A DNA stretch of 47,654 nt from a bacterium HR11 (GTDB lineage Bacteria; Acidobacteriota; HRBIN11): contig BEHN01000007.1 of the NCBI GenBank assembly GCA_002898535.1, forward strand, positions 68,946 through 116,599, read 5' to 3'. A program made the position numbers and the translations under genes. The notes under the pieces were generated by a model. That model ran no database searches. It saw only the letters and a list, made by a program, of their open reading frames with translations, and was not told the DNA's origin. Below are positions 3,258 to 47,224 of the stretch, in pieces (position 1 is the first letter of the stretch; each line of letters opens with the position of its first letter).

Positions 3258-6200
3258 TTAACGGCACTGCAGAGCAAAGGCGCGCTGGAGGAAGATGGCC
3301 ATCTGGGCCCGGTTGACGGGGGCCAGCGGACAGTAGGTCGTCGCCGTGCATCCGCCGGTGATGTTGTTCGCCCACATCCAGTGGACATGCGGACAGTAGA
3401 AGACGCCGTCGGGCACGTCCGTAAATTGGTTAGGCAAACCGTCGGTGCAGTCCCAGCTCCCGCCCGGGCCGCTCCCGACCGCCGGCGGGTCCGTCCCCAA
3501 GACGGCCCGGCTAATAAAGATGGCCATCTGGGCCCGGTTGACGGGGTCCAGCGGGCAGTAGGTCGTCGCCGTGCACCCGCCGGCGATGTTGTTCGCCCAC
3601 ATCCAGTGCACATGCCGACAGTAGAACACCCCGTCGGGCACGTCCGTGAATTGGTTAGGCAAACCGTCGGTGCAGTCCCAGCTCCCGCCCGGACCGCTCC
3701 CGACCGCCGGCGGGTCCGTCCCCAGGACGGCCCGGCTAATAAAGATGGCCATCTGGGCCCGGTTGATATCGGCGAGCGGACAGTACACAAGGTCCGTCAT
3801 GTCACCGTCGCCGTTCAGGTCGGCGCCGTAAACGCTCGCCTCCGTGCCGCATCCACCAGTGATTTGGTTCGAGATCAGCCGCTGAACGTAGTAGTCGACC
3901 CCCGAGGCCACGTCGGCGATGCTCGTACGGGCGAGGACACGCACCTGCACGTTAGACTCGTCGGGGTCGTTGCTCACGATGCCGACCCGGGAGTCGATAC
4001 AGCCGCTCGAGGAATTCCATGAGAAGTTCAGCAGACTGCTGGTCGAGGGCGCGATCGTCAAGGGTAGCGTCGTCGTGACGGTCACCGAAGGTGCCAGGCT
4101 GTTGTCCACGCCGCTGATGATGAGGTCCGAAGCCCCCAGGTTCTTAACGGTGAGGCCCTGGCCCTGGGTGTGGCCCCAGACGACCGTGCCGAAATCGAGG
4201 GTCGTCGTCGGCATATGGATGTCCGGATAGGGCCCCACGCCCGTGCCCTGGGCGTTAATGGACCCAGAACCCGCCGTGTCCGTCGTGACGGGAATGCCCG
4301 CAGACTGGAATCCGCCGGCGGCCGGCGTGAAGGTCACCTGGCAAAGGACTTCAGCGCCCGCATTGACCGTAAAGGGCGTCGGCGGGCAGCTGACCGCAAA
4401 CTGCGGGTCGGGTGAGGGACCGACCGTCGTCACCGCAAAGGGTGCCGTTCCGATGTTCCGGATATGGACCGGCAGGGTCTTGGAGCCGCCGACCGCCACA
4501 AAGGCAAACTCCAAGGGATCCGGCACAATCTCGAGGATACCGACAGGTGGTGCCGACGATGCGTCGACCGTCAGGGTTTCAATCGTCGTGGCATTTACCT
4601 TCAGGTCGATCAAATAGGTTCCAGCAGGTGTCCCGTCGCAGGCCGGATTCCCTGTATTACCCGGCACGAACGAACCGACGAAGATGCCGTCCCCGGCGAC
4701 CTGGTCCGGCGGGGTCCCGTCGTCCACCAAGGTAAGCGTCGTACAAAGAGTCGGGGAGGTCACCTGCTGACATACGACTTCGACGTTGTCGATGGCCCAC
4801 CACCAGGCCCAGTTGGCATTGTAGTAATGGAATCGGACTTTTACGTTCGGTTGGCCAGCCGCGATCGCCGTTAAGTCCACTGCCTTCGTGTTAGGCGTCG
4901 GATAACCGTCGTCGCTAATCATATGAAGCACGGTGGTCCACGTCGTCCCCCCGTCGATGCTCACATCCACGTCTGCTACGTCGCCAAGATTATTGTACTG
5001 GTTGCTGAAGCGAAGCCACACGTTCTTGCCCGGACCCGTGCACGCGCTTAGATCCATCGAGGGCGTAATCAGCTGTTCGTCCATCACGCCGCAGCCGGAA
5101 CCCGCACAATCCGAGTCCGCAATTGCGAAAGTCCCGCTAAATGGAGGACCGATAGAGCGACTGCAAGGATTCGTATCGGTCCAAGTAGCCGTGCAAGTGC
5201 CGCCGTTGACGATCGTCCAGGAGGCCGGAATCCCGCCGCTGAAGTCTTCGGTCAGGACGGGCGTTTCTATCACCGTCACCTTCTGCACATCGGCCGTCAC
5301 GCTCCCGGGGGCCCCGACGTTCCAGCCGTTGACGTTGATGACCTTCATCACGAAGGGCTGGCCGACGAAGCCACTGAAGGGCCCCATGCCGTAAGGCCAG
5401 ATGCGGGCCCGCAGGTCATAGTCGCCGGGACCCGAACCGGCCGCCGCGACCTGGGCGGCCCGCAGGGCGTTGATCCGCTTGTCGGTGACCGACTTCTTGC
5501 CCGCCGGCGTTCCATCGCCCGTATAAGACTGGAAAGTAGGATCGCCGATGGTGGCAAGGTCCACGTCGTCGTTGCCTAAGGCACTACAGTCGGCGTCCGT
5601 CATCGTCGAGGCCACGCCCGTCGTCAGGATGATGTTCCGGATCTGCCACCACTGGAGGCTGGGCTGAACGGCCTTCAGCAGGGCTGCCAGGCCCGTCACG
5701 TGGGGCGTCGCCATCGAGGTCCCGGAGGCAAACACGTACTGGGCGTTGGGATCTCCGGAGCACATCCCGATGAGCGGCCACGGACAGGCCCCCAGGATAA
5801 GACTGCCCGGCGCAAAGATGTCCACGCTCCGACCGCCCCAGTTGGAGAAGGACGAAGCGCAGTCGTGCTGGTTCATCGACCCGACGGCGATGATGTTGTC
5901 CAGGTCGTAGTTGGACGGGAAGTTATCGGTGGTATCGTTGTCCGAGGCGTCATTGCCGGCCGCAAAGACGGCCAAGATGCCGGCGTCCCGATTCGCCGCA
6001 ATGGCATCATAGAGGGCCCATGAGAATCCGCCGCCGCCCCAGCTGTTGCTCGTCGCTACCAGATTGAAGCCCCGCTGGACCTTCAAGTAGTAGGCATACT
6101 CGAAGCACTTGATGGCGTCGGCCGTCGTGCCCGTGCCCGAACTATCGAGGAACTTGCATCCGATGATCTTGACCCGATTCTGGAGGCCGCCCATGCCGAC

Positions 6201-7232
6201 GAGACCCGCAACGTTGTTGGCCCGGGCCGCGATCGTGCTGGCCACATGGGTGCCGTGTCCGAAGTCGTCCATGGGGTCGCCGAAGTTGGCACTGCCGCAA
6301 CCGGGGCCTCCGCCGCCGGCCCCGATGGTCCGGATACCGTGGACGTCGTCGACGATACCGTCGTTGTCGTCGTCCAGACCATTGGCCGGGACCTCACCCG
6401 GGTTGACCCACATGTTGGCCGCCACGTCCACGTGCGTGTAGTCGACGCCCGTATCGATGACCATTACCAGAACGTCTTGGGTCGTCGTTTGCGGCACGTG
6501 CGTCCATGCGCCCTGTGACTCGACGGTGACGCACTTCTTGGGGTCGGTACAGGGGAGTACGCTGATGTCCGGGCGGCTTGCGTTGTTCCCGCCGCAACCG
6601 AAGCCGCTGGGACAAAGGAAGGGGTCTACATAAGTGCATGCCGTGGCCATCTGAAGGTCCCACGAATACGTGAACCACGATTTGCCGTCCGTGTCGGGGG
6701 ACTCGGGGTCACACTGGGAGTAGTATCCTGGAAAAGGATGCGTCGCCGTGTCCCGAATCTGGACGAAGGGGTCGTTCGGGTAAGCGGCCTGTAAGACGTG
6801 CACGATGTAGTTGGGCTCGGCGTACTGCACCAGCCCGCTTTTCTCAAAGAGTTCGATGGCCCGCTTGACCGAAAGGTTCACCGGGAGCCGGACCCACTGG
6901 AGTCCGGGAACCATCCGGGATTCGAGGAGCACGGTCGTACCCAGTTGCCGGTGAAGCGCCTGGGCCTGGGCGGCGGATACGCCCTTCTTGAAGCGCACGA
7001 GGACTTCACCGGGCACGTAGGGCCGCTCCGCCTTTTTGTTTGCCCGGAAAAGGTAACCAAACTCTGGAGGAAGATGGCGACCTTTCCCGATCCGGACCCG
7101 TTCGAACAGCGAGTCCCGATCGGCTTTGGGGTCGCCGGCTGAAGGCCGGGGCTGAAGCCCCAACATGAGGGGCGTCAGCAACAAGAGGCCCGGCAGGAGC
7201 CACAGCCAATGGAGTCGTTTCCCCCTCTTCAT
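3258..7232 (-). CDS. Secreted subtilisin-like serine protease with C-terminal SLH-like repeats
   Basis: A 1324-aa multidomain exoprotease. Residues 1-32 form a signal peptide (MKRGKRLHWLWLLPGLLLL). Residues 72-149 look like a fervidolysin/I9-type prodomain (VPGEVLVRFKKGVS...YAEPNYIVHV). The S8 catalytic domain follows with Asp260 (VMVIDTGVDYTH), His326 (FGHGTHVAS), Asn427 (AAGND) and Ser506 (ASGTSMATPHVTGLAALLKA). An NGLDDDNDGIVDD stretch may bind calcium. Downstream are a jelly-roll-like segment (from about 670), an ASPM-SPD2-Hydin/choice-of-anchor-like Ig domain (about 905-1010), another Ig-like domain, then S-layer-homology-like repeats with INRAQMAIFISRAVLG motifs. The last repeats are a 75-aa near-exact tandem duplication. 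The start has AGGGAGGG four bases upstream. It probably degrades extracellular protein while attached to the cell surface. Confidence 0.93.
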   Translation of the reverse strand: MKRGKRLHWLWLLPGLLLLTPLMLGLQPRPSAGDPKADRDSLFERVRIGKGRHLPPEFGYLFRANKKAERPYVPGEVLVRFKKGVSAAQAQALHRQLGTTVLLESRMVPGLQWVRLPVNLSVKRAIELFEKSGLVQYAEPNYIVHVLQAAYPNDPFVQIRDTATHPFPGYYSQCDPESPDTDGKSWFTYSWDLQMATACTYVDPFLCPSGFGCGGNNASRPDISVLPCTDPKKCVTVESQGAWTHVPQTTTQDVLVMVIDTGVDYTHVDVAANMWVNPGEVPANGLDDDNDGIVDDVHGIRTIGAGGGGPGCGSANFGDPMDDFGHGTHVASTIAARANNVAGLVGMGGLQNRVKIIGCKFLDSSGTGTTADAIKCFEYAYYLKVQRGFNLVATSNSWGGGGFSWALYDAIAANRDAGILAVFAAGNDASDNDTTDNFPSNYDLDNIIAVGSMNQHDCASSFSNWGGRSVDIFAPGSLILGACPWPLIGMCSGDPNAQYVFASGTSMATPHVTGLAALLKAVQPSLQWWQIRNIILTTGVASTMTDADCSALGNDDVDLATIGDPTFQSYTGDGTPAGKKSVTDKRINALRAAQVAAAGSGPGDYDLRARIWPYGMGPFSGFVGQPFVMKVINVNGWNVGAPGSVTADVQKVTVIETPVLTEDFSGGIPASWTIVNGGTCTATWTDTNPCSRSIGPPFSGTFAIADSDCAGSGCGVMDEQLITPSMDLSACTGPGKNVWLRFSNQYNNLGDVADVDVSIDGGTTWTTVLHMISDDGYPTPNTKAVDLTAIAAGQPNVKVRFHYYNANWAWWWAIDNVEVVCQQVTSPTLCTTLTLVDDGTPPDQVAGDGIFVGSFVPGNTGNPACDGTPAGTYLIDLKVNATTIETLTVDASSAPPVGILEIVPDPLEFAFVAVGGSKTLPVHIRNIGTAPFAVTTVGPSPDPQFAVSCPPTPFTVNAGAEVLCQVTFTPAAGGFQSAGIPVTTDTAGSGSINAQGTGVGPYPDIHMPTTTLDFGTVVWGHTQGQGLTVKNLGASDLIISGVDNSLAPSVTVTTTLPLTIAPSTSSLLNFSWNSSSGCIDSRVGIVSNDPDESNVQVRVLARTSIADVASGVDYYVQRLISNQITGGCGTEASVYGADLNGDGDMTDLVYCPLADINRAQMAIFISRAVLGTDPPAVGSGPGGSWDCTDGLPNQFTDVPDGVFYCRHVHWMWANNIAGGCTATTYCPLDPVNRAQMAIFISRAVLGTDPPAVGSGPGGSWDCTDGLPNQFTDVPDGVFYCPHVHWMWANNITGGCTATTYCPLAPVNRAQMAIFLQRAFALQCR
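3295..3805 (-). repeat. 225-bp tandem repeat inside the protease gene
   Basis: The phrase atggccatctgggcccggtt recurs at 3295, 3520 and 3745, exactly 225 bp (75 codons) apart. The unit from 3295 to 3519 is nearly identical to 3520-3744, and a third, partial, more diverged copy follows. Each unit encodes an SLH-like module with conserved Cys and the INRAQ/VNRAQ motif. Near identity at DNA level implies recent duplication or gene conversion, so the copy number may vary between strains. Confidence 0.9.
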
Positions 7233-7394: not shown

Positions 7395-7669
7395 CAGCCT
7401 CTTCCTGAAGTTCGGACATGACATGGGACAAAGGAACCCAAATCAGGCCGATGGGAAGCCGCGAGGGCTTCGGCCCGGGGATCGATCCCCTGACTTGGAC
7501 GGGGCGAGAGCGTTTTCTCAGGTCATATCTGGATGCCTGCGCCTGGATGTCCAAACTCATATCCGAAGGTCAGCCTCCTCGGGGGTTGGGTGTCCTGACC
7601 CGCATCGGGTGCGATTCGATAGGGGCGTCCAAGACTCGGAACACCCGCCGTCCTGCGGGGGTCTCTTGA

Positions 7670-13887: not shown

Positions 13888-14000
13888 GTATAGACCATAG
13901 ACCCCAGACCACGGACCATGGACCATAGAGCCCCGGGGCCCAAGCCGGTCTATGGTCTGGGGTCTATGGTCTGCGGTCCATGGTCTGCGGTCTATGGTCC
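13888..14000. repeat. Inverted TATGGTC heptamer array (family B) upstream of tyrS
   Basis: The left arm (13889-13928) repeats ATAGACC-type units and the right arm (13949-14000) repeats TATGGTC-type units. The two are reverse complements around the centre agccccggggcccaagccgg. The whole could fold into one long cruciform or RNA hairpin. The same centre occurs in the copies near 15745 and 46420. The array ends about 20 bp before the tyrS start and 18 bp after the J-protein stop. Confidence 0.85.
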
Positions 14001-15455: not shown

Positions 15456-15689
15456 ATCGACAGATGGGCAGGTGGGCAGTCGGCAGGTCGGCCGGTGGGC
15501 CGGTCGGCCGACCGGCCGACTGCCTATCTGCCAACCTGCCTATCTGCCGACCTGCCCATCTGCCCATCTGCCAAATGCCCATCTGCCGACCTGCCGACGG
15601 CCCATCTGCCGAATACTTGAAACATCGTGCTTTCGTGGAGGTGCCCTTTCCGCCCTTCATCTCACTTCTCACCCCCCGAACCGCTCTGT
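15456..15689. mobile_element. TIR element with GGCAGATG octamer arms, left end missing
   Basis: From 15456 a GGCAGGTG-type array runs into GGCCGGTGGGCCGGTCGG and its complement, then a long CTGCCCAT-type array to about 15612. The right terminal repeat follows (ACTTGAAACATCGTGC to CCGAACCGCTCTGT, ending 15689) and then TA. This right end is the variant with a TTTCGTGGAGGTGCCC block and CTCACTTCTCAC, also seen at 38423, 45310 and 47090. The left terminal repeat is absent because the array reaches the start codon of the J-domain gene. Confidence 0.8.
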
Positions 15690-15701: not shown

Positions 15702-15836
15702 TAATCCGACCATAGACCATAGACCGCAGACCCCAGACCATAGACCGGCTTGGGCCCAGGGGTCTGTGGTCCATGGTCTATGGTCCATGGTCTGTGGTCT
15801 GATGTCGAGGGTCCGATCCCGGTCCCGTCGGATTAA
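15702..15836. mobile_element. Small ATCCGAC-ended element with TATGGTC array
   Basis: TTAATCCGAC and GTCGGATTAA form perfect 10-bp ends. Between them lie inverted TATGGTC heptamer arms around a GGCTTGGGCCC centre and a non-repeated segment (about 15793-15826). Another copy in the opposite orientation lies at 46353-46484 and shares the segment and the neighbouring ATGAGACTGGTT. TA lies at both borders. There is no coding capacity. Confidence 0.75.
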
Positions 15837-15856
15837 TGAGACTGGTTTTGCCCATG

Positions 15857-19142: not shown

Positions 19143-19425
19143 TTCGGCGGTCCGGGAATTCGGGAACTCGGGAGTCCGGGAGTTCGGGGATTCGGCAGAT
19201 GGGCAGTTCGGCAGTCGGCAGTTCGGCGGGTGGGCAGATAGAAAGCCACGGTCCTGGGCCGACGGGCCGGCCCGACCGCCGCCGTCCCCGGCGGCTCCTA
19301 CATAGATAACCCCGGGGGTCGTCTCTACCCTTGTATCTTCTATCTGCCCACCTGCCGACTGCCAAACTGCCCATCTGCCGAGTCCCCGAATTCCCGAACT
19401 CCCGAATGGCCGAACTGCCCATGGC
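19143..19425. repeat. Long palindromic array region between convergent genes
   Basis: A left arm of CCGGGAAT/TCGGGAAC octamers then GGCAGATG-type octamers leads to a centre (GTCCTGGGCCGACGGGCC). A right arm of CTGCCCAC octamers then CCCGAATT octamers mirrors it. The order of families is reversed, so the whole is a large imperfect palindrome. It fills the gap between two converging genes and ends two bases before the thiO stop, a position suited to transcription termination from both sides. No CAGAGCCG ends are present. Confidence 0.75.
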
Positions 19426-19427
19426 CG

Positions 19428-24601: not shown

Positions 24602-25846
24602 ATGACCCGTCGAGTCGTCGTCACCGGTATCGGGATGGTCACGCCGCTCCATCCGACGACGGAGGGGAGCTGGGAGGCTTTGGTCGCCGGTCAAAGCGGT
24701 GTTGGCTACGTAACGCGATACGAACTGGGGGAGGACTTTCCGGTCCGTATCGCCGCCGAGGTCAAGGGCTTCGACCCCCTGCCGTACATCGACAAGAAAG
24801 ACTTACGGAAGATGGACCTCTTCATCCAGTACGCCGTGGCGGCGACCGAGCAGGCCCTCGAGATGGCCCGCTATCGGGTCCGACCCGAGGAGGCGGACCG
24901 GGTCGCCGTCATCATCGGCTCCGGCATCGGCGGGTTTCCCATGATCGAGGAGATGCACAAGACCCTCTTGGAGAAGGGGCCCCGCCGGATCTGGCCGGCC
25001 TTCATCCCGGCCGTCATCGTGAATATGGCCGCCGGCGTCGTCTCGATCCGGACCGGCGCCAAGGGCCCCAACGTGGCCCCGTGCACGGCCTGTTCGACGG
25101 GTGCCCACGCCATCGGGGACGCCTTTAAGCTGATCCAGCGGGGGGCCGCCGACGTGGCCATCGCCGGCGGGGCCGAGGCGGCCATCACGCCCTTGGCCAT
25201 CGCCGGCTTTGCCGCCATGCACGCCCTATCGACCCGGAACGACGCCCCGGAGAAGGCCAGCCGCCCCTTCGATGCTCAGCGGGACGGCTTTGTGATGGGA
25301 GAGGGCGCCGGGATCCTGATCCTGGAGTCCCTGGAGCATGCCCTGGACCGGGGGGCCGACATCTTATGCGAGATCGTCGGTTATGGTCTGAACAGCGACG
25401 CCTACCACATCACGGCCCCCTGCGCCGACGGGGACGGGGCCATCCGGGTCATGCGGATGGCCCTCCAGGACGCCCGGATGGCCCCCGAAGAGGTCGACTA
25501 CATCAACGCCCACGGGACGTCCACGCCCTTGAACGACAAGATCGAGACCTTGGCCATTAAGGCCGTCTTTGGGGACCACGCCCGGAAGCTGGCCATCAGC
25601 TCGACGAAGTCGATGATGGGTCACCTCTTGGGCGCCGCCGGCGGCGTCGAGGCGGCCGTCTGCGTGCTGGCCATCCGCCACGGCGTCATCCCACCGACGA
25701 TCAACTACGAATATCCGGACCCCGAGTGCGACCTGGACTACGTCCCCAATCAGGCCCGCCGTCAAGACGTTCGGGTCGCCATGACGAACTCCTTCGGGTT
25801 TGGGGGCACCAACGCCTGCCTGATCTTTAAGCGGTATGAAGACTAA
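24602..25846 (+). CDS. fabF: 3-oxoacyl-ACP synthase II
   Basis: FabF elongates acyl-ACP by condensation with malonyl-ACP. The 414-aa protein has the nucleophile Cys164 in [16 protein letters not shown] and the two catalytic His in [11 protein letters not shown] and [12 protein letters not shown], plus the terminal [15 protein letters not shown]. It begins [16 protein letters not shown] after GAGGGAGACC. The final TAA is peculiar: its first two bases appear to be the TA target of a TIR element and its last A is the element's first base, so the insertion lies exactly at the stop codon. Confidence 0.97.
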
Positions 25847-26258
25847 CAGAGCCGTTCGGTTCAGGAGAATGGCGTCAGAACAATCTTTCCCATCCCCCGG
25901 AAAGCATGATGTTTCAAGCATTTGGCAGATGGGCAGTCGGCAGGTGGGCAGGTGGGCAAGTGGGCAGATGGGCAGGTCGGCAGATGGGCAGATGGGCAGG
26001 TGGGCAGGTGGGCAGATGGGCAGGTCGGGAGACTGGCGCCTATCCCCGGCCCACCGGCCGTCATGCCGGTGGCTTCCGGAGAGAGCCCGCCGTCCTGCGG
26101 GCGTCATCCTCATTAAACCGCCCGTCCTGGCCGGGTCGATCCCCTCTGAACACCGCCAGGGATGGCGGTGTCATCCTTCACAAGCTTGAAAAATCGAGAT
26201 GGCCGGGCCACCGTTTTCCCGGATGGGAACCGCATTTCTCCCAACCGAACGGCTCTGC
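25846..26258. mobile_element. Complete TIR element, octamer array plus hairpin units (413 bp)
   Basis: The left end ACAGAGCCGTTCGGTTCAGG follows TA of the fabF stop codon. The right end CCCAACCGAACGGCTCTGC is followed by TA. Inside are a GGCAGATG/GGCAGGTG array (25926-26027) and then four hairpin units of about 34 bp (26055-26178) with stems such as CACCGGC/GCCGGTG and ACACCGCC/GGCGGTGT. The inner terminal-repeat border GCTTGAAAAATCG resembles the left TTTCAAGC. The right 230 bp closely match the element at 38423-38803. No open frame looks coding. Confidence 0.9.
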
Positions 26259-26454
26259 TAACCGACCCCTCCCGATTCCCGCCGCATCCCTCCTCCCGTG
26301 ACTGTTCCATTCTCGGTGGGGAAATCGGTCGAGTAAGCAGGACTGGAGTGGCTTCTTTCCGTGACTAGGCCCGGTCCGAGCCGCGGCCAGCTGGGATGAG
26401 TTTTTCCGCCCTTTCACCCACCAGTTTTGGAACAGTCACCTCCTCCCCCGGCTT

Positions 26455-30306: not shown

Positions 30307-30314
30307 TAGTGATA

Positions 30315-30574
30315 GCAGAGCCGTTCGGTTCGTGAGAATGGCGTCGGCACAACCTTTCCCAACGCCCGGGAAGCACGGTTTTTCAAGCATCCGGCAGATG
30401 GGCAGGTCGGCAGATAGGCAGATAGAAGCCGGGTGGGCAAGGATCAGCCCCAGGGCTTTTGGGACCATCTGCCCATCTGCCGAACTGCCTATCTGCCAAA
30501 GCTTGAAAACCGTCCTTCCCGAAGGGTCGAAAAAGCCGAATCCATGCGGGTTTTCACCAACCGAACGGCTCTGC
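30315..30574. mobile_element. Complete TIR element (260 bp), sister of 20554-20809
   Basis: Perfectly delimited: TA at 30313-30314 and 30575-30576, GCAGAGCCGTTCGGTTCGTG at the left and ACCGAACGGCTCTGC at the right. Octamer arms GGCAGATG/GGCAGATA and CATCTGCC face each other across a centre containing GGGGCTGA-type sequence. It is the reverse complement of the copy at 20554-20809 with few changes. No coding capacity. Confidence 0.92.
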
Positions 30575-30587
30575 TATGAGACTGGTT

Positions 30588-31787: not shown

Positions 31788-31807
31788 CGGCGCCTTCCCG
31801 AGACTCA

Positions 31808-32045
31808 GCAGAACCGTTCGGTTCGTGAGAATGGCATCGGGACCACCTTTCCCATCCCCAGTGACGAAGTGACGAGCCAGGGTGATGGATGGTTCATAGC
31901 CGCTATGGGCTCATAGCTTATGGCTCATAGCCGCATTGGCTCATAGCTCGTGGCTCATGGCTCATAGTCCCATGAGCCATCAGCTATAAGCCATGAGCCA
32001 ATAAAGCCGAATCCCTGCGGGTTTTCACGAACCGAACGGCTCTGT
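31808..32045. mobile_element. Complete TIR element with TCATAGC heptamer core (238 bp)
   Basis: The ends are GCAGAACCGTTCGGTTCGTG (left) and ACCGAACGGCTCTGT (right), here flanked by CA on both sides in place of TA. The interior is a different family from the GGCAGATG copies: heptamers TCATAGC, TTATGGC, TCATAGC, TCGTGGC, TCATGGC with a CATGAGC/CATGAGCC reverse arm (31892-32007). So the same ends can carry unrelated arrays. Confidence 0.85.
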
Positions 32046-32071
32046 CAGATTACCAAAAACCGCCGCCGCTG

Positions 32072-33479: not shown

Positions 33480-33552
33480 TCCCGGGAATTCGGGAGTCCG
33501 GCCGTTCAGGAATTCGGGAATCCGGGATTCGGGAATTCGGGAGTTCGGGAAT
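33480..33552. repeat. CCCGAATT octamer array (family C) before the permease gene
   Basis: Minus-strand units CCCGAACT, CCCGAATT, CCCGAATC, CCGGATTC, CCGAATTC run to within a few bases of the GGGAGGT ribosome site. The gap 33553-33725 holds part of a 34-bp-type hairpin (CATGCCGGTGGC near 33593), other short GC-rich repeats and no gene. Confidence 0.75.
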
Positions 33553-33725
33553 GAGGGCGTCCGACCCGAATCTCCTGAAGCACTCATCATCATGCCGGTG
33601 GCCTGAGCCGCGGTGCACTTCATCACGGCGTCTGGACTCAGCGCTTCCGGGAAAGGCGCCGGACGCCCCGGGGCTTGCTACTTCGCTCAGGACCGGCGGC
33701 ACCCCGAGGGGTCACCATCGCCCGT

Positions 33726-34916
33726 CTATCCCCAGACGGCCGAACTCCCGAACGGCCGGATAGCTCCGGCCCCCGCTCTAACGAGCGGGGCTGGGATGAA
33801 AATAGTCGACCGGCCCGACCTCCCGAACTCCCGAATGGCCGGACTCCCGGATTCCCGGATCCCCGGATTCCCGGCCCGTTGGAAGGCCTCGGCGATGGAC
33901 CGGACCCAAAAGTCCACGACGTCCCAGTATGTCGGGAACTGGGCCGTCACGCCCATCGGGATGACAACCGGCACGGCCCCGGCCCGCTCGGCGACGGTCC
34001 GGACCTTCTCCTGGTCAAAATAAACGGCGGCGATGAGGACCCGGACGTTCTCCTTCTGCATCCGCTCGATGACCTGTGCGACGTGTTGGGGCGACGGCGG
34101 AATGCCCGGCTTCGGCTCGATGTAATCGACGATCTGCTGACCGAAGAGGGTCGCAAAGTAGATCCAGTCCTTGTGGTAGCACACGACCTTCCGGTCCCGG
34201 AAGACCAAGCCTGCTTTGAGCCAACCGCCCAAGCGGTCGATGAGAGGCTGTCCCTGATACGTCTTGGACCGCAAGAAAGAGATAAGCTGGCCACTTTCCA
34301 CGAGCCGGTCCAGGAGGTCGCCCCCGAACATCTGGACGAGGGCGTCGCCGAAGAGACGGCGGTCGACCTCGTCCTTGAAGTGCTGGAGGTTGTGCTCGTA
34401 AATGTCCCGGTGGGCCGGGTCGACCCGGATGAGGCCCGCCGCGATATTGGCGGCGACCCGCTTCATCAGCCAGGGGCTCGTGTAGATGTGGGGATTCCCG
34501 TAGACGTGAATGTCGCCCTCGGCCCGGGAAGCCATCGCCGGGACCTCCAGGAGTCGGATCCCCGCCGAGGCCGAGACGTAACCAGGACTGCCCGGCATGA
34601 TGCGGGCGTTGCCGGCCTTCGCCAGGAGGGCCGGCTCCCAGAGCTCCAGGTCGAGGCCTGTCGAGATAAAGAGGTCCGCATTCTGGACGAGAACGGCGTA
34701 GCTCGGCTTGGGCTTCACGAAGTGGGGGTCCTCGGTCCCGTCGGCGATGGAGACGACCTCCACGTAAGGCCCCCCGATGAGCTGGGCCACAAACCCATAG
34801 TTCGTCAGCGTGGCGACGACCCGGACTTTTTTCGGCTGAGCCGTCCCCGGAGGGCCTTGGGCCCAAACGATGCAGACCAAGATCCCGATCACTCCGATCC
34901 GTCTAAGACGCCGCAT
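33726..34916 (-). CDS. Metal ABC transporter substrate-binding protein (ZnuA/TroA-like)
   Basis: The periplasmic zinc/manganese-binding component. From the ATG at 34916 (GGAGGTGGCT upstream) the 396-aa product has a signal peptide (MRRLRRIGVIGILVCIVWAQ) and the cluster A-I fold: VVATLTNYGFVAQLIGG, DPHFVKPKPSYAVLVQNADL, GNPHIYTSPWLMKRVAANIA, VVCYHKDWIYFATLFG, PPSPQHVAQVIERMQKENV. Metal-ligand His are in DPHFV, NPHIY and CYHKDW. There is no His-rich loop as in high-affinity ZnuA. After SIAEAFQRA, where family members end, a tail of about 48 residues (GNPGIRESGSPAIREFGRSG and onward) is encoded by CCCGAATT arrays and a repeat hairpin. It is probably a recent non-native extension. Confidence 0.9.
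   Translation of the reverse strand: MRRLRRIGVIGILVCIVWAQGPPGTAQPKKVRVVATLTNYGFVAQLIGGPYVEVVSIADGTEDPHFVKPKPSYAVLVQNADLFISTGLDLELWEPALLAKAGNARIMPGSPGYVSASAGIRLLEVPAMASRAEGDIHVYGNPHIYTSPWLMKRVAANIAAGLIRVDPAHRDIYEHNLQHFKDEVDRRLFGDALVQMFGGDLLDRLVESGQLISFLRSKTYQGQPLIDRLGGWLKAGLVFRDRKVVCYHKDWIYFATLFGQQIVDYIEPKPGIPPSPQHVAQVIERMQKENVRVLIAAVYFDQEKVRTVAERAGAVPVVIPMGVTAQFPTYWDVVDFWVRSIAEAFQRAGNPGIRESGSPAIREFGRSGRSTIFIPAPLVRAGAGAIRPFGSSAVWG
33738..33875. repeat. CCCGAACT octamer arrays within the metal-binding protein frame
   Basis: Two array stretches, one near 33738-33756 and one near 33817-33868 (CCCGAACT, CCCGAATG, GCCGGACT, CCCGGATT, CCCGGATC), flank the hairpin at 33771-33790. They keep an open frame on the minus strand because units of 8 bp shift through all phases without stops. 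Confidence 0.7.
33771..33790. repeat. CCCCGCTC-TAAC-GAGCGGGG hairpin, copy 1
   Basis: An 8-bp perfect hairpin with TAAC loop and GCT after it. It recurs at 44943-44962 (loop TGGC) and 46165-46184 (loop TAAC). In this copy it lies inside the repeat-encoded tail of the metal-binding protein. Confidence 0.75.
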
Positions 34917-37008: not shown

Positions 37009-37041
37009 GGGGCCGACGCCGCCATGACGGCCGGCCGTCGG
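37009..37041. repeat. Single hairpin unit of the 34-bp family
   Basis: CCGACGCCGCC-ATGAC-GGCCGGCCGTCGG folds imperfectly with the ATGACG loop typical of the hairpin units in the mobile elements. It stands alone between the two divergent promoters. Confidence 0.5.
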
Positions 37042-38420: not shown

Positions 38421-38422
38421 TA

Positions 38423-38803
38423 TCAGAGCCGTTCGGGCGGTGAGAAGTGAGATGGAGAGCGGAAAGGGCACCTCCACGAAAGCACGATGTTTAGGCAGTC
38501 GGCAGATAGGCAGTCGGCAGGTGGGCAGGTGGGCAAGTGGGCAGGTGGGCAGGTGGGCAAGTGGGCAGGTCGAGAGACGGGCGTCGGTCCCCGGCCCACC
38601 GGCCGTCATGCCGGTGGCTTCCGGAGAGAGCCCGCCGTCCTGCGGGCGTCATCCTCATTAAACCGCCCGTCTTGGCCGGGTCGATCCCCTCTGAACACCG
38701 CCAGGGATGGCGGTGTCATCCTTCACAAGCTTGAAAAATCGAGATGGCTGGGCCATCGTTTTCCCGGATGGGAACCGCATTTCTCCCAACCGAACAGCTC
38801 TGC
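38423..38803. mobile_element. Complete TIR element with octamer array and hairpin units (381 bp)
   Basis: TA flanks at 38421-38422 and 38804-38805. The left end (TCAGAGCCGTTCGGGCGGTG) is the variant with the GAAGTGAGATGGAGAGC block. The interior holds a GGCAGGTG/GGCAAGTG array (38505-38570) then four hairpin units (about 38594-38722) and the right end shared with 25846-26258. It ends 12 bp before the moeA start codon, so moeA has lost or never had another upstream region. Confidence 0.9.
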
Positions 38804-38817
38804 TATGTGAGGCATCC

Positions 38818-45067: not shown

Positions 45068-45069
45068 TA

Positions 45070-45376
45070 ACAGAGCCGTTCGGTTGGGAGAAATGCGGTC
45101 CCCATCCGGGAAAACGGTGGCCCGGCCATCTCGATGTTTCAAGCTTCCTCCGGATGACCCGGCCAGGACGGGCGGTTCATGAAGATGACGCCCGCAGGAC
45201 GGCGGGCTCTCTCCGGAAGCCACCGGCGTGACGGCCGGTGGGCCGGGGACCGACGCCCGTCTCTCGACCTGCCCATCTGCCCACCTGCCCATCTGCCGAA
45301 TGCTTGAAAAATCGTGCTTTCGTAGAGGTACCCTTTCCGCTCTCCATCTCACTTCTCACCGCCCGAACCGCTCTGA
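45070..45376. mobile_element. Complete TIR element with hairpin units and short array (307 bp)
   Basis: TA flanks (45068-45069, 45377-45378). The left end ACAGAGCCGTTCGGTTGGGA is followed by the AAATGCGG/CATCCGGG block, then three hairpin units (about 45157-45262), a short CTGCCCAT array (45268-45296) and the right end variant with CTTTCGTAGAGGTACCC and CCGAACCGCTCTGA. It is the reverse orientation of the copy at 38423-38803. Confidence 0.9.
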
Positions 45377-45480
45377 TAACAGATCCCCGATTTGCGTCCA
45401 GCTCCGGCTCAAGCGTAAAATGGGACGTCTGAGCCCCTCATAGCGCCTCGGTCCAGTCCCTCTTCGGCGGGGAGGCCTCT

Positions 45481-46352: not shown

Positions 46353-46484
46353 ATAAATCCGACGGGACCGGGATCGGACCCTCGATATCAGACCAAAGAC
46401 CACAGACCATGGACCATAGACCCCCGGGGCCCAAGCCGGTCTATGGTCCGTGGTCTATGGTCTGTGATCTATGGTCGGATTTAT
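46353..46484. mobile_element. Small ATCCGAC-ended element with TATGGTC arms (132 bp)
   Basis: ATAAATCCGAC and GTCGGATTTAT form perfect 11-bp ends. The interior has the unique segment GGGACCGGGATCGGACCC, then inverted TATGGTC arms around CCCCGGGGCCCAAGCCGG. It is the inverted counterpart of 15702-15836. The sequence AACCAGTCTCAT lies just outside, as in the other copy. Confidence 0.8.
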
Positions 46485-46580: not shown

Positions 46581-46604
46581 GACGCCGGCATGACGGCCGG
46601 CGTC
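46581..46604. repeat. Isolated hairpin of the 34-bp family, 9-bp stem
   Basis: GACGCCGGC-ATGACG-GCCGGCGTC, a perfect 9-bp stem with the usual ATGACG loop. The bases 46485-46580 and 46605-46683 contain no gene. Confidence 0.7.
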
Positions 46605-46685
46605 CGGATGGGATGGACGCCGCAGGGGGCTTTGAGACGATGGCTCAGGGATGTCCACAGAGCCAGATGGCTTGTAATCTGCTTA

Positions 46686-47159
46686 TCACAGCCGTTCGGT
46701 TGGGAGAAATGCGGTTCCCATCCGGGAAAACGGAAACGGTGGCCCGGCGACCTCGATTTTTCAAGCTTGTTAAGGATGACACCGCCATGACGGGCGGTGT
46801 TCAGAGGGGATTGACACCGCCATCCCTGGCGGTGTTCAGATGGGATGACACCGCCATCCCTGGCAGTGTTCGGAGGGGATGGCACCGCCATGACGGGCGG
46901 TGTTCAGAGGGGATCGACCCGGCCAGGACGGGCGGTGCATGCGGAGGACGCCCGCAGGACGGCGGGCTCTCTCCGGAAGCCACCGGCATGACGGCCGGTG
47001 TCCCGGGGATAGACGCCCGTCGCCCGACCTGCCCATCTGCCGACCTGCCCATCGGCCCACCTGCCAACTGCCCATCTGCCGAATGCCTGAAACATCGTGC
47101 TTTCGTGGAGATGCCCTTTCCGCTTCCCATCGCACTTCTCATCTCCCGAACGGCTCTGT
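46686..47159. mobile_element. Longest TIR element, seven tandem hairpins plus octamer array (474 bp)
   Basis: TA flanks (46684-46685, 47160-47161). The left end is TCACAGCCGTTCGGTTGGGA, the right end CTCCCGAACGGCTCTGT. After the left terminal repeat come seven hairpins (46779-47000) spaced 31-35 bp, then GCCCGTCGCCCG and a CTGCCCAT/CTGCCGAC array (47033-47087). It is the same family as 25846-26258, 38423-38803 and 45070-45376, with more hairpin units. No coding frame is credible. Confidence 0.9.
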
Positions 47160-47224
47160 TATCTACCCATTCCCTCATCGCCCATCGGTCTACTGGCCGG
47201 CCTGCCGAACCCTCGACGGATGCT

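Follow-up and report, generated by a model that had tools for sequence, protein, structure and literature searches.

Tandem hairpins whose stem bases change in pairs while the loop stays raise the question of whether their folded form works as RNA, works as DNA, or merely follows from the way in which such repeats multiply. An array of this kind lies near the end of the 47,654-nucleotide stretch analysed here (the window), which is part of the 2.99 Mb draft genome of an acidobacterium, bacterium HR11; the nearest named genome, from within its genus, is JAUQPV (JZ-1.bins.94), likewise an Acidobacteriota MAG. A preliminary description had reported seven units with paired stems, six-base loops and a spacing of 31–35 bp, and direct reading together with a search recovered all seven at 46779–47001, with stems, loops and spacing as claimed. 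All are on the plus strand. Unit 1 (ACACCGCC-ATGACG-GGCGGTGT) occupies 46779–46800, unit 2 (loop ATCCCT) 46814–46835, unit 3 (loop ATCCCT, one C-A mismatch) 46848–46869 and unit 4 (GCACCGCC-ATGACG-GGCGGTGT) 46882–46903. The fifth unit, described as imperfect, is indeed degenerate at 46917–46938, where its sequence was read directly as ACCCGGCC-AGGACG-GGCGGTGC. Unit 6 (ACGCCCGC-AGGACG-GCGGGCTC, 46948–46969) pairs over six bases only, and unit 7 (CCACCGGC-ATGACG-GCCGGTGT) closes the array at 46980–47001.

The same units recur elsewhere in the window. Groups that had been noted near 26 kb and 38.6 kb are present as four-hairpin arrays at 26051–26171 and 38596–38716, both on the minus strand, and the group noted at 45157 is a three-hairpin array at 45157–45241 on the plus strand. 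Single units had been listed as well: the one at 46582–46603 (ACGCCGGC-ATGACG-GCCGGCGT, plus strand, 47 bits) was confirmed as a lone hairpin outside any element, the one near 37009 corresponds to a weaker match only (37011–37041, plus strand, 31.5 bits), and a further lone unit at 7637–7667 (minus strand, 33 bits) was absent from that list. What had been missed is that every group in the window except the singles is placed inside a TA-ended terminal-inverted-repeat (TIR), MITE-like element, with convergent copies of the end sequence TA[AG]CAGAGCCGTTCGG at both element ends. The element around the reported array spans 46684–47161 on the plus strand, and its ends, TATCACAGCCGTTCGGTT and TAACAGAGCCGTTCGG, each have two mismatches to the 18-base end. 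The minus-strand arrays belong to minus-strand elements at 25844–26260 and 38421–38805, and the three-hairpin array to a plus-strand element at 45068–45378; sibling elements free of hairpins are found at 30313–30576 and 31806–32047. The elements at 46684–47161 and 25844–26260 also carry a tract of 8-bp repeats. Such degenerate tracts (GGCAGGTG/CTGCCCAT, CGGGAATT) occur at 15459–15610, 19153–19427, 25924–26025, 33483–33874, 38501–38570 and 47022–47080, between genes as well as inside TIR elements, and their length differs between copies.

Beyond the window, the units form a large family. In the genome of the window (G000), a paired-column profile with a score of at least 14 found at least 420 units in 161 arrays within 1.21 Mb, against 4 units in a reversed-sequence control at the same score, and in a sister species about 90% identical (G001) the profile found 158 units in 0.415 Mb; since the searched stretches were picked around matches, these counts are not densities. 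With three or fewer mismatches allowed, the pattern of the first unit has 186 matches in the genome, and the reversed pattern has none. A calibrated covariance model run against 297 genomes of the phylum found units in G000, G001 and one further genome (G002), and among the rest gave one weak, solitary match, in a genome of another genus (G182). The hairpins are genuine and occur far more often than chance would give, and the family is restricted to the genus, the other sampled Acidobacteriota genera being without it bar that one isolated match. Anaerolineae and one viral contig also gave exact matches, which were set aside as coding stretches or an isolated hairpin, with no arrays.

The TIR elements are numerous too, and only partly coincide with the arrays. 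End matches numbered 411 in G000, 144 in G001, 2 in G002 and none in a reversed control, and 70 end pairs were found in the first 0.83 Mb of G000 examined. About half of the units of G000 are inside TA-ended TIR elements, and about 64 of its 161 arrays lie between two TIR ends, compared with 4% of random points; for 49 of the 161 (about 30%) the nearest TIR end is more than 700 bp away. Of the 55 arrays in G001, not one is enclosed by two ends, and 48 are without an end nearby. These arrays without a nearby end rule out that all arrays are parts of TIR elements, and for the same reason the hairpin arrays are a separate repeat family, which the TIR element captured in the G000 lineage. The elements begin and end in TA, and one of them, its right end mutated, has an empty site in G001 that is consistent with insertion at TA.

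The arrays are highly ordered. Of the multi-unit arrays in G000, 110 out of 112 have their units in a single orientation, head to tail, and the unit spacing peaks at 31/32 and 34/35 bp. About six pairs of the stem act as a helix and the two outermost positions are without covariation. The four bases 5' of the stem are mostly GATG, GAAG, GAGG or GGGG, the foot of the unit ends in G, usually as G-N-N-G, and the loop is mostly T-N-A-C, closed by A-T, by G-C or by an A-G apposition. Modules in G001 follow a fixed order, namely hairpin 1, about 10 bases, hairpin 2, a TCGGATGGGATGG-type linker, hairpin 3, a CAGGACAGGGGG-type linker and hairpin 4, and stem and loop at each hairpin position differ between copies. 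The units within one array are paralogues, since what was copied to form the arrays is a multi-hairpin module whose linkers are specific to their position. Array length varies between copies, and arrays are shortened by recombination between units. Some units are hybrids that combine the 5' arm of one type with the 3' arm of the next type. Of 12 such hybrids, 10 close their array, compared with 8 of 52 normal units of that type, which fits unit loss by recombination.

That stem bases change in pairs, as the preliminary description had proposed, survives a collection of units made blind to pairing, shuffling of arms and sliding of arms. Pairing was kept out of the selection by accepting units that lay at the expected distance from a strong neighbour and recognising them by nothing more than the loop and the preceding base. 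Among 247 distinct units of G000 collected in this way, stem pair 7 is Watson-Crick in 230, where independent arms would give 116, with G-C and C-G at 116:111; pairs 3, 6 and 8 are also above expectation. The same pairs covary in 104 units of G001, and none of 2000 arm shuffles reached the observed pairing in either genome. Perfect six-base stems are found in 128 units of G000 and 62 of G001, and in at most two when one arm is slid by 1–3 bases. A model-fitted alignment of G001 units gives the same picture, though such an alignment leans to the model. Covariation holds within the position classes defined by linkers; at one G001 position (H4 type) true members have GGC/GCC, GGG/CCC, AGC/GCT and GCC/GGC stems, in a search diluted by chance matches. 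The loop-closing pair covaries too, as A-T or G-C.

On balance we think it probable that the hairpins are non-autonomous, REP-like DNA repeats of mobile type, a family belonging to one genus and spread as single-stranded DNA hairpins through a trans-acting enzyme, one module having later been amplified after TIR capture. Head-to-tail multi-hairpin modules would be copied into many intergenic sites, the unit folding as single-stranded DNA and being recognised by a trans-acting recombinase, in the manner of REP and IS200/IS605-type systems. Spread would then require the folded unit, and stem pairing may be kept by this requirement, by copying of one arm from the other in replication, or by both. 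In the G000 lineage the module would have been captured inside the TA-ended TIR element, whose amplification may have made much of the copy number, the reported array included. It is established that TnpA-REP proteins recognise their hairpins by loop, foot and stem (PMC8266576), and REPIN hairpins are reported to have compensatory changes (PMC3116915). Counting against this explanation, the arrays of G001 are mostly without a TIR nearby, so that movement of the module itself falls outside the TIR account, and no mobilising enzyme was found among the families searched.

The Y1/RAYT transposase family (PF01797) has no match in G000 or G002, and IS630 (PF13358), DDE_Tnp_1 (PF01609) and Transposase_mut (PF00872) have none in G000, G001 or G002; both absences weigh against the mechanism just outlined, and on the latter these three families were set aside as drivers of the TIR elements. 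Longer TIR-bounded genes (0.7–3.5 kb), considered as autonomous copies, were ordinary cellular genes or had no Pfam match where checked. MAGs can lose multi-copy transposase genes, and the G000 MAG may be incomplete. G001 has one PF01797 gene, flanked by another hairpin family, GGAGCGCAGACGTCCCCGTCTGC: the RAYT-like Y1 transposase at L057 1285–1812 has clustered hairpins of this kind on both sides, an apparent REPtron, and a few of them also occur in G000, which is without such a RAYT gene. Across 37 RAYT loci of the phylum there was no good match to the hairpin unit. In another Acidobacteriota genus, a RAYT gene has hairpins nearby whose loop is of the TGAC type (L206 1203–1233, 1290–1320 and 1880–1910); their loop resembles that of the units studied here, and their stem and foot do not.

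A possible alternative, to which we give distinctly less credence, is that the palindromes are passive, carried along by TIR elements and array expansion, with pairing produced by template switching and whole-unit exchange and no folded form being selected. Switching of the template between the arms of a hairpin can give rise to hairpins and preserve them, and offers a route to compensatory changes without selection (PMC8794818). The perfect six-base stems that recur, at different positions and in different genomes, are of only 7–8 kinds, as whole-unit exchange would give, and of 20 pairs of units with exactly two stem differences, 4 are set apart by one complete base-pair change. The commonest covariation is from C-G to G-C, a change with no route through G-U, and the hybrid units and variable array lengths speak for frequent recombination. 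Passive origin leaves the conserved loop and foot unexplained, however, as well as the dispersed TIR-free arrays of G001. The present data do not separate enzyme-driven spread from passive pairing.

A role as RNA, in which the arrays would be transcribed as structured RNA, for instance stabilising mRNA ends, with the loop, U-N-A-C on one of the strands, as a recognition or tetraloop motif, appears unlikely. It would account for the covarying stems and for a conserved T-N-A-C loop whose closing pair covaries, and the reported array does fold strongly, whether treated as DNA or as RNA from either strand, at about 4.8 standard deviations below dinucleotide shuffles. A search of the window against Rfam, however, gave no match at the gathering score. 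Although about 79% of the G000 sequence is coding, only 2 of 153 arrays are inside genes. With gene calls from our own hexamer-based predictions, gene 3' ends facing an array in G000 were sense in 63 cases and antisense in 58, and gene starts gave 89 against 83 (p = 0.70–0.72); the counts in G001, 30/22 for 3' ends and 29/18 for starts, were not significant either, and array orientation is without bias relative to flanking genes in both genomes. This absence of bias speaks against an mRNA-end element. Units with a single mismatch have 19 G-U against 38 A-C on the reported strand, which is no G-U excess. Read as RNA, the opposite strand has the reverse ratio, 38 to 19 (nominal p = 0.016), a signal in favour of RNA that is weak since the units are not independent.

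The arrays also turn over. Of nine loci syntenic with G001 arrays, four have no unit in G000 and others have different unit numbers, and a two-hairpin insertion in G001, about 310 bp long, corresponds to an empty syntenic site in G000. This insertion (L132, about 4870–5180) is bounded by inverted tracts of the type TCGGTATTGGGTGTT, and is a second kind of carrier for the hairpins. Gene avoidance, turnover and the lack of orientation bias and of a G·U excess speak against conserved RNA and in favour of a REP-like mobile repeat at the level of DNA; the orientation counts and the G-U ratio, taken with the C-G to G-C changes, the turnover and the hybrids, favour a DNA-level repeat with rapid turnover. 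The preliminary description had read the covariation as selection for the folded form, as cruciform DNA or as RNA, a reading that finds partial support only. The covariation stands and a DNA-level hairpin fits better than an RNA role, which is disfavoured, while template switching offers a way to the same pattern without selection. The number of units is little guide to function, since they are dispersed repeats of mobile type.

Chance inverted repeats of a G+C-rich genome, where short palindromes are common, or an assembly error, have already been refuted by the reversed-sequence, reversed-pattern and slid-arm controls and by the presence of the hairpins in G002 and in the independently assembled sister genome.

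How the preferred DNA-level repeat relates to known systems can be judged from its parts. The units are short, high-copy and mainly intergenic palindromes, as the general definition of REPs has it, and may possibly work like a REP. With the REPs and REPINs of the GTAG superfamily and their RAYT (PMC3733652, PMC8266576, PMC3116915) they share the 20–40 bp palindromes, the hundreds of intergenic copies, the paired stem changes and the conserved loop, and some of the hairpins that flank RAYT genes in other Acidobacteriota (L206) carry a TGAC loop like theirs. In contrast to that superfamily, the units lack the GTAG foot at the 5' end, having mostly GATG, GAAG or GAGG, and are arranged head to tail, where GTAG repeats form inverted (head-to-head or tail-to-tail) dimers and are rarely head to tail. 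The units, moreover, form position-specific multi-hairpin modules; and where the GTAG superfamily calls for a RAYT gene flanked by the same hairpin, G000 has no RAYT and none was found beside the hairpin studied. The CGTC-tagged REPs, including the Neisseria dRS3 (PMC3733652), are similar in their 8–9 bp stems, 4–5 base loops and lack of a known dedicated transposase, but have a terminal unpaired CGTC tag and CCA tail, A-T pairs that open the stem, and head-to-head dimers; the units here have neither tag nor such A-T pairs, and form head-to-tail clusters. Membership in either superfamily as defined in PMC3733652 was rejected on the missing tags, the head-to-tail rather than inverted arrangement and the lack of an accompanying RAYT.

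REP-like palindromes and MITE-like elements are both known kinds, and the hairpins described here are a variant rather than a standard REP. Bacterial MITEs with TA target duplication include Correia, ERIC and RUP. Like these, the TIR elements are short, gene-less, bounded by TA inverted repeats and present in hundreds of copies; unlike them, they have an internal hairpin array and 8-bp tracts of variable length. The enclosing element has the terminal inverted repeats of a MITE, and no partner transposase with the same terminal repeats was found in G000 among the Y1 family, the three DDE families and the TIR-bounded genes checked. Double-hairpin elements of fungal mitochondrial DNA are also mobile, G+C-rich hairpins in which loops are conserved and stem changes compensatory, and resemble the units in these respects; they differ in being mitochondrial, in having two hairpins and in having no link to a TIR element. 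We tentatively raise the possibility that these repeats, having neither GTAG nor CGTC tags, represent an additional class of palindromic repeat in bacteria, which would spread as T-N-A-C-loop multi-hairpin modules by a putative single-strand DNA enzyme and be captured and amplified by a TIR element.

Strong stem covariation is usually read as proof of a functional RNA, and the present family illustrates that dispersed DNA repeats of mobile type can acquire it too. With several hundred natural copies spread over two close species, the family provides material for asking whether selection or template switching accounts for the pairing, and REP-like hairpins and TIR elements are here linked in one genome in which a transposase was found for neither. 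Other repeats were also seen in the window. Palindromic blocks of 7-bp repeats (GGTCTAT / GACCATA) around a CCCCGGGGCCCAAGCCGG core are present in several copies, at 13899–13999, 15708–15846 and 46374–46476, and two tandem 225-bp copies, 95% identical, are found at 3292–3741 inside a minus-strand open reading frame of 1324 amino acids (3258–7232).
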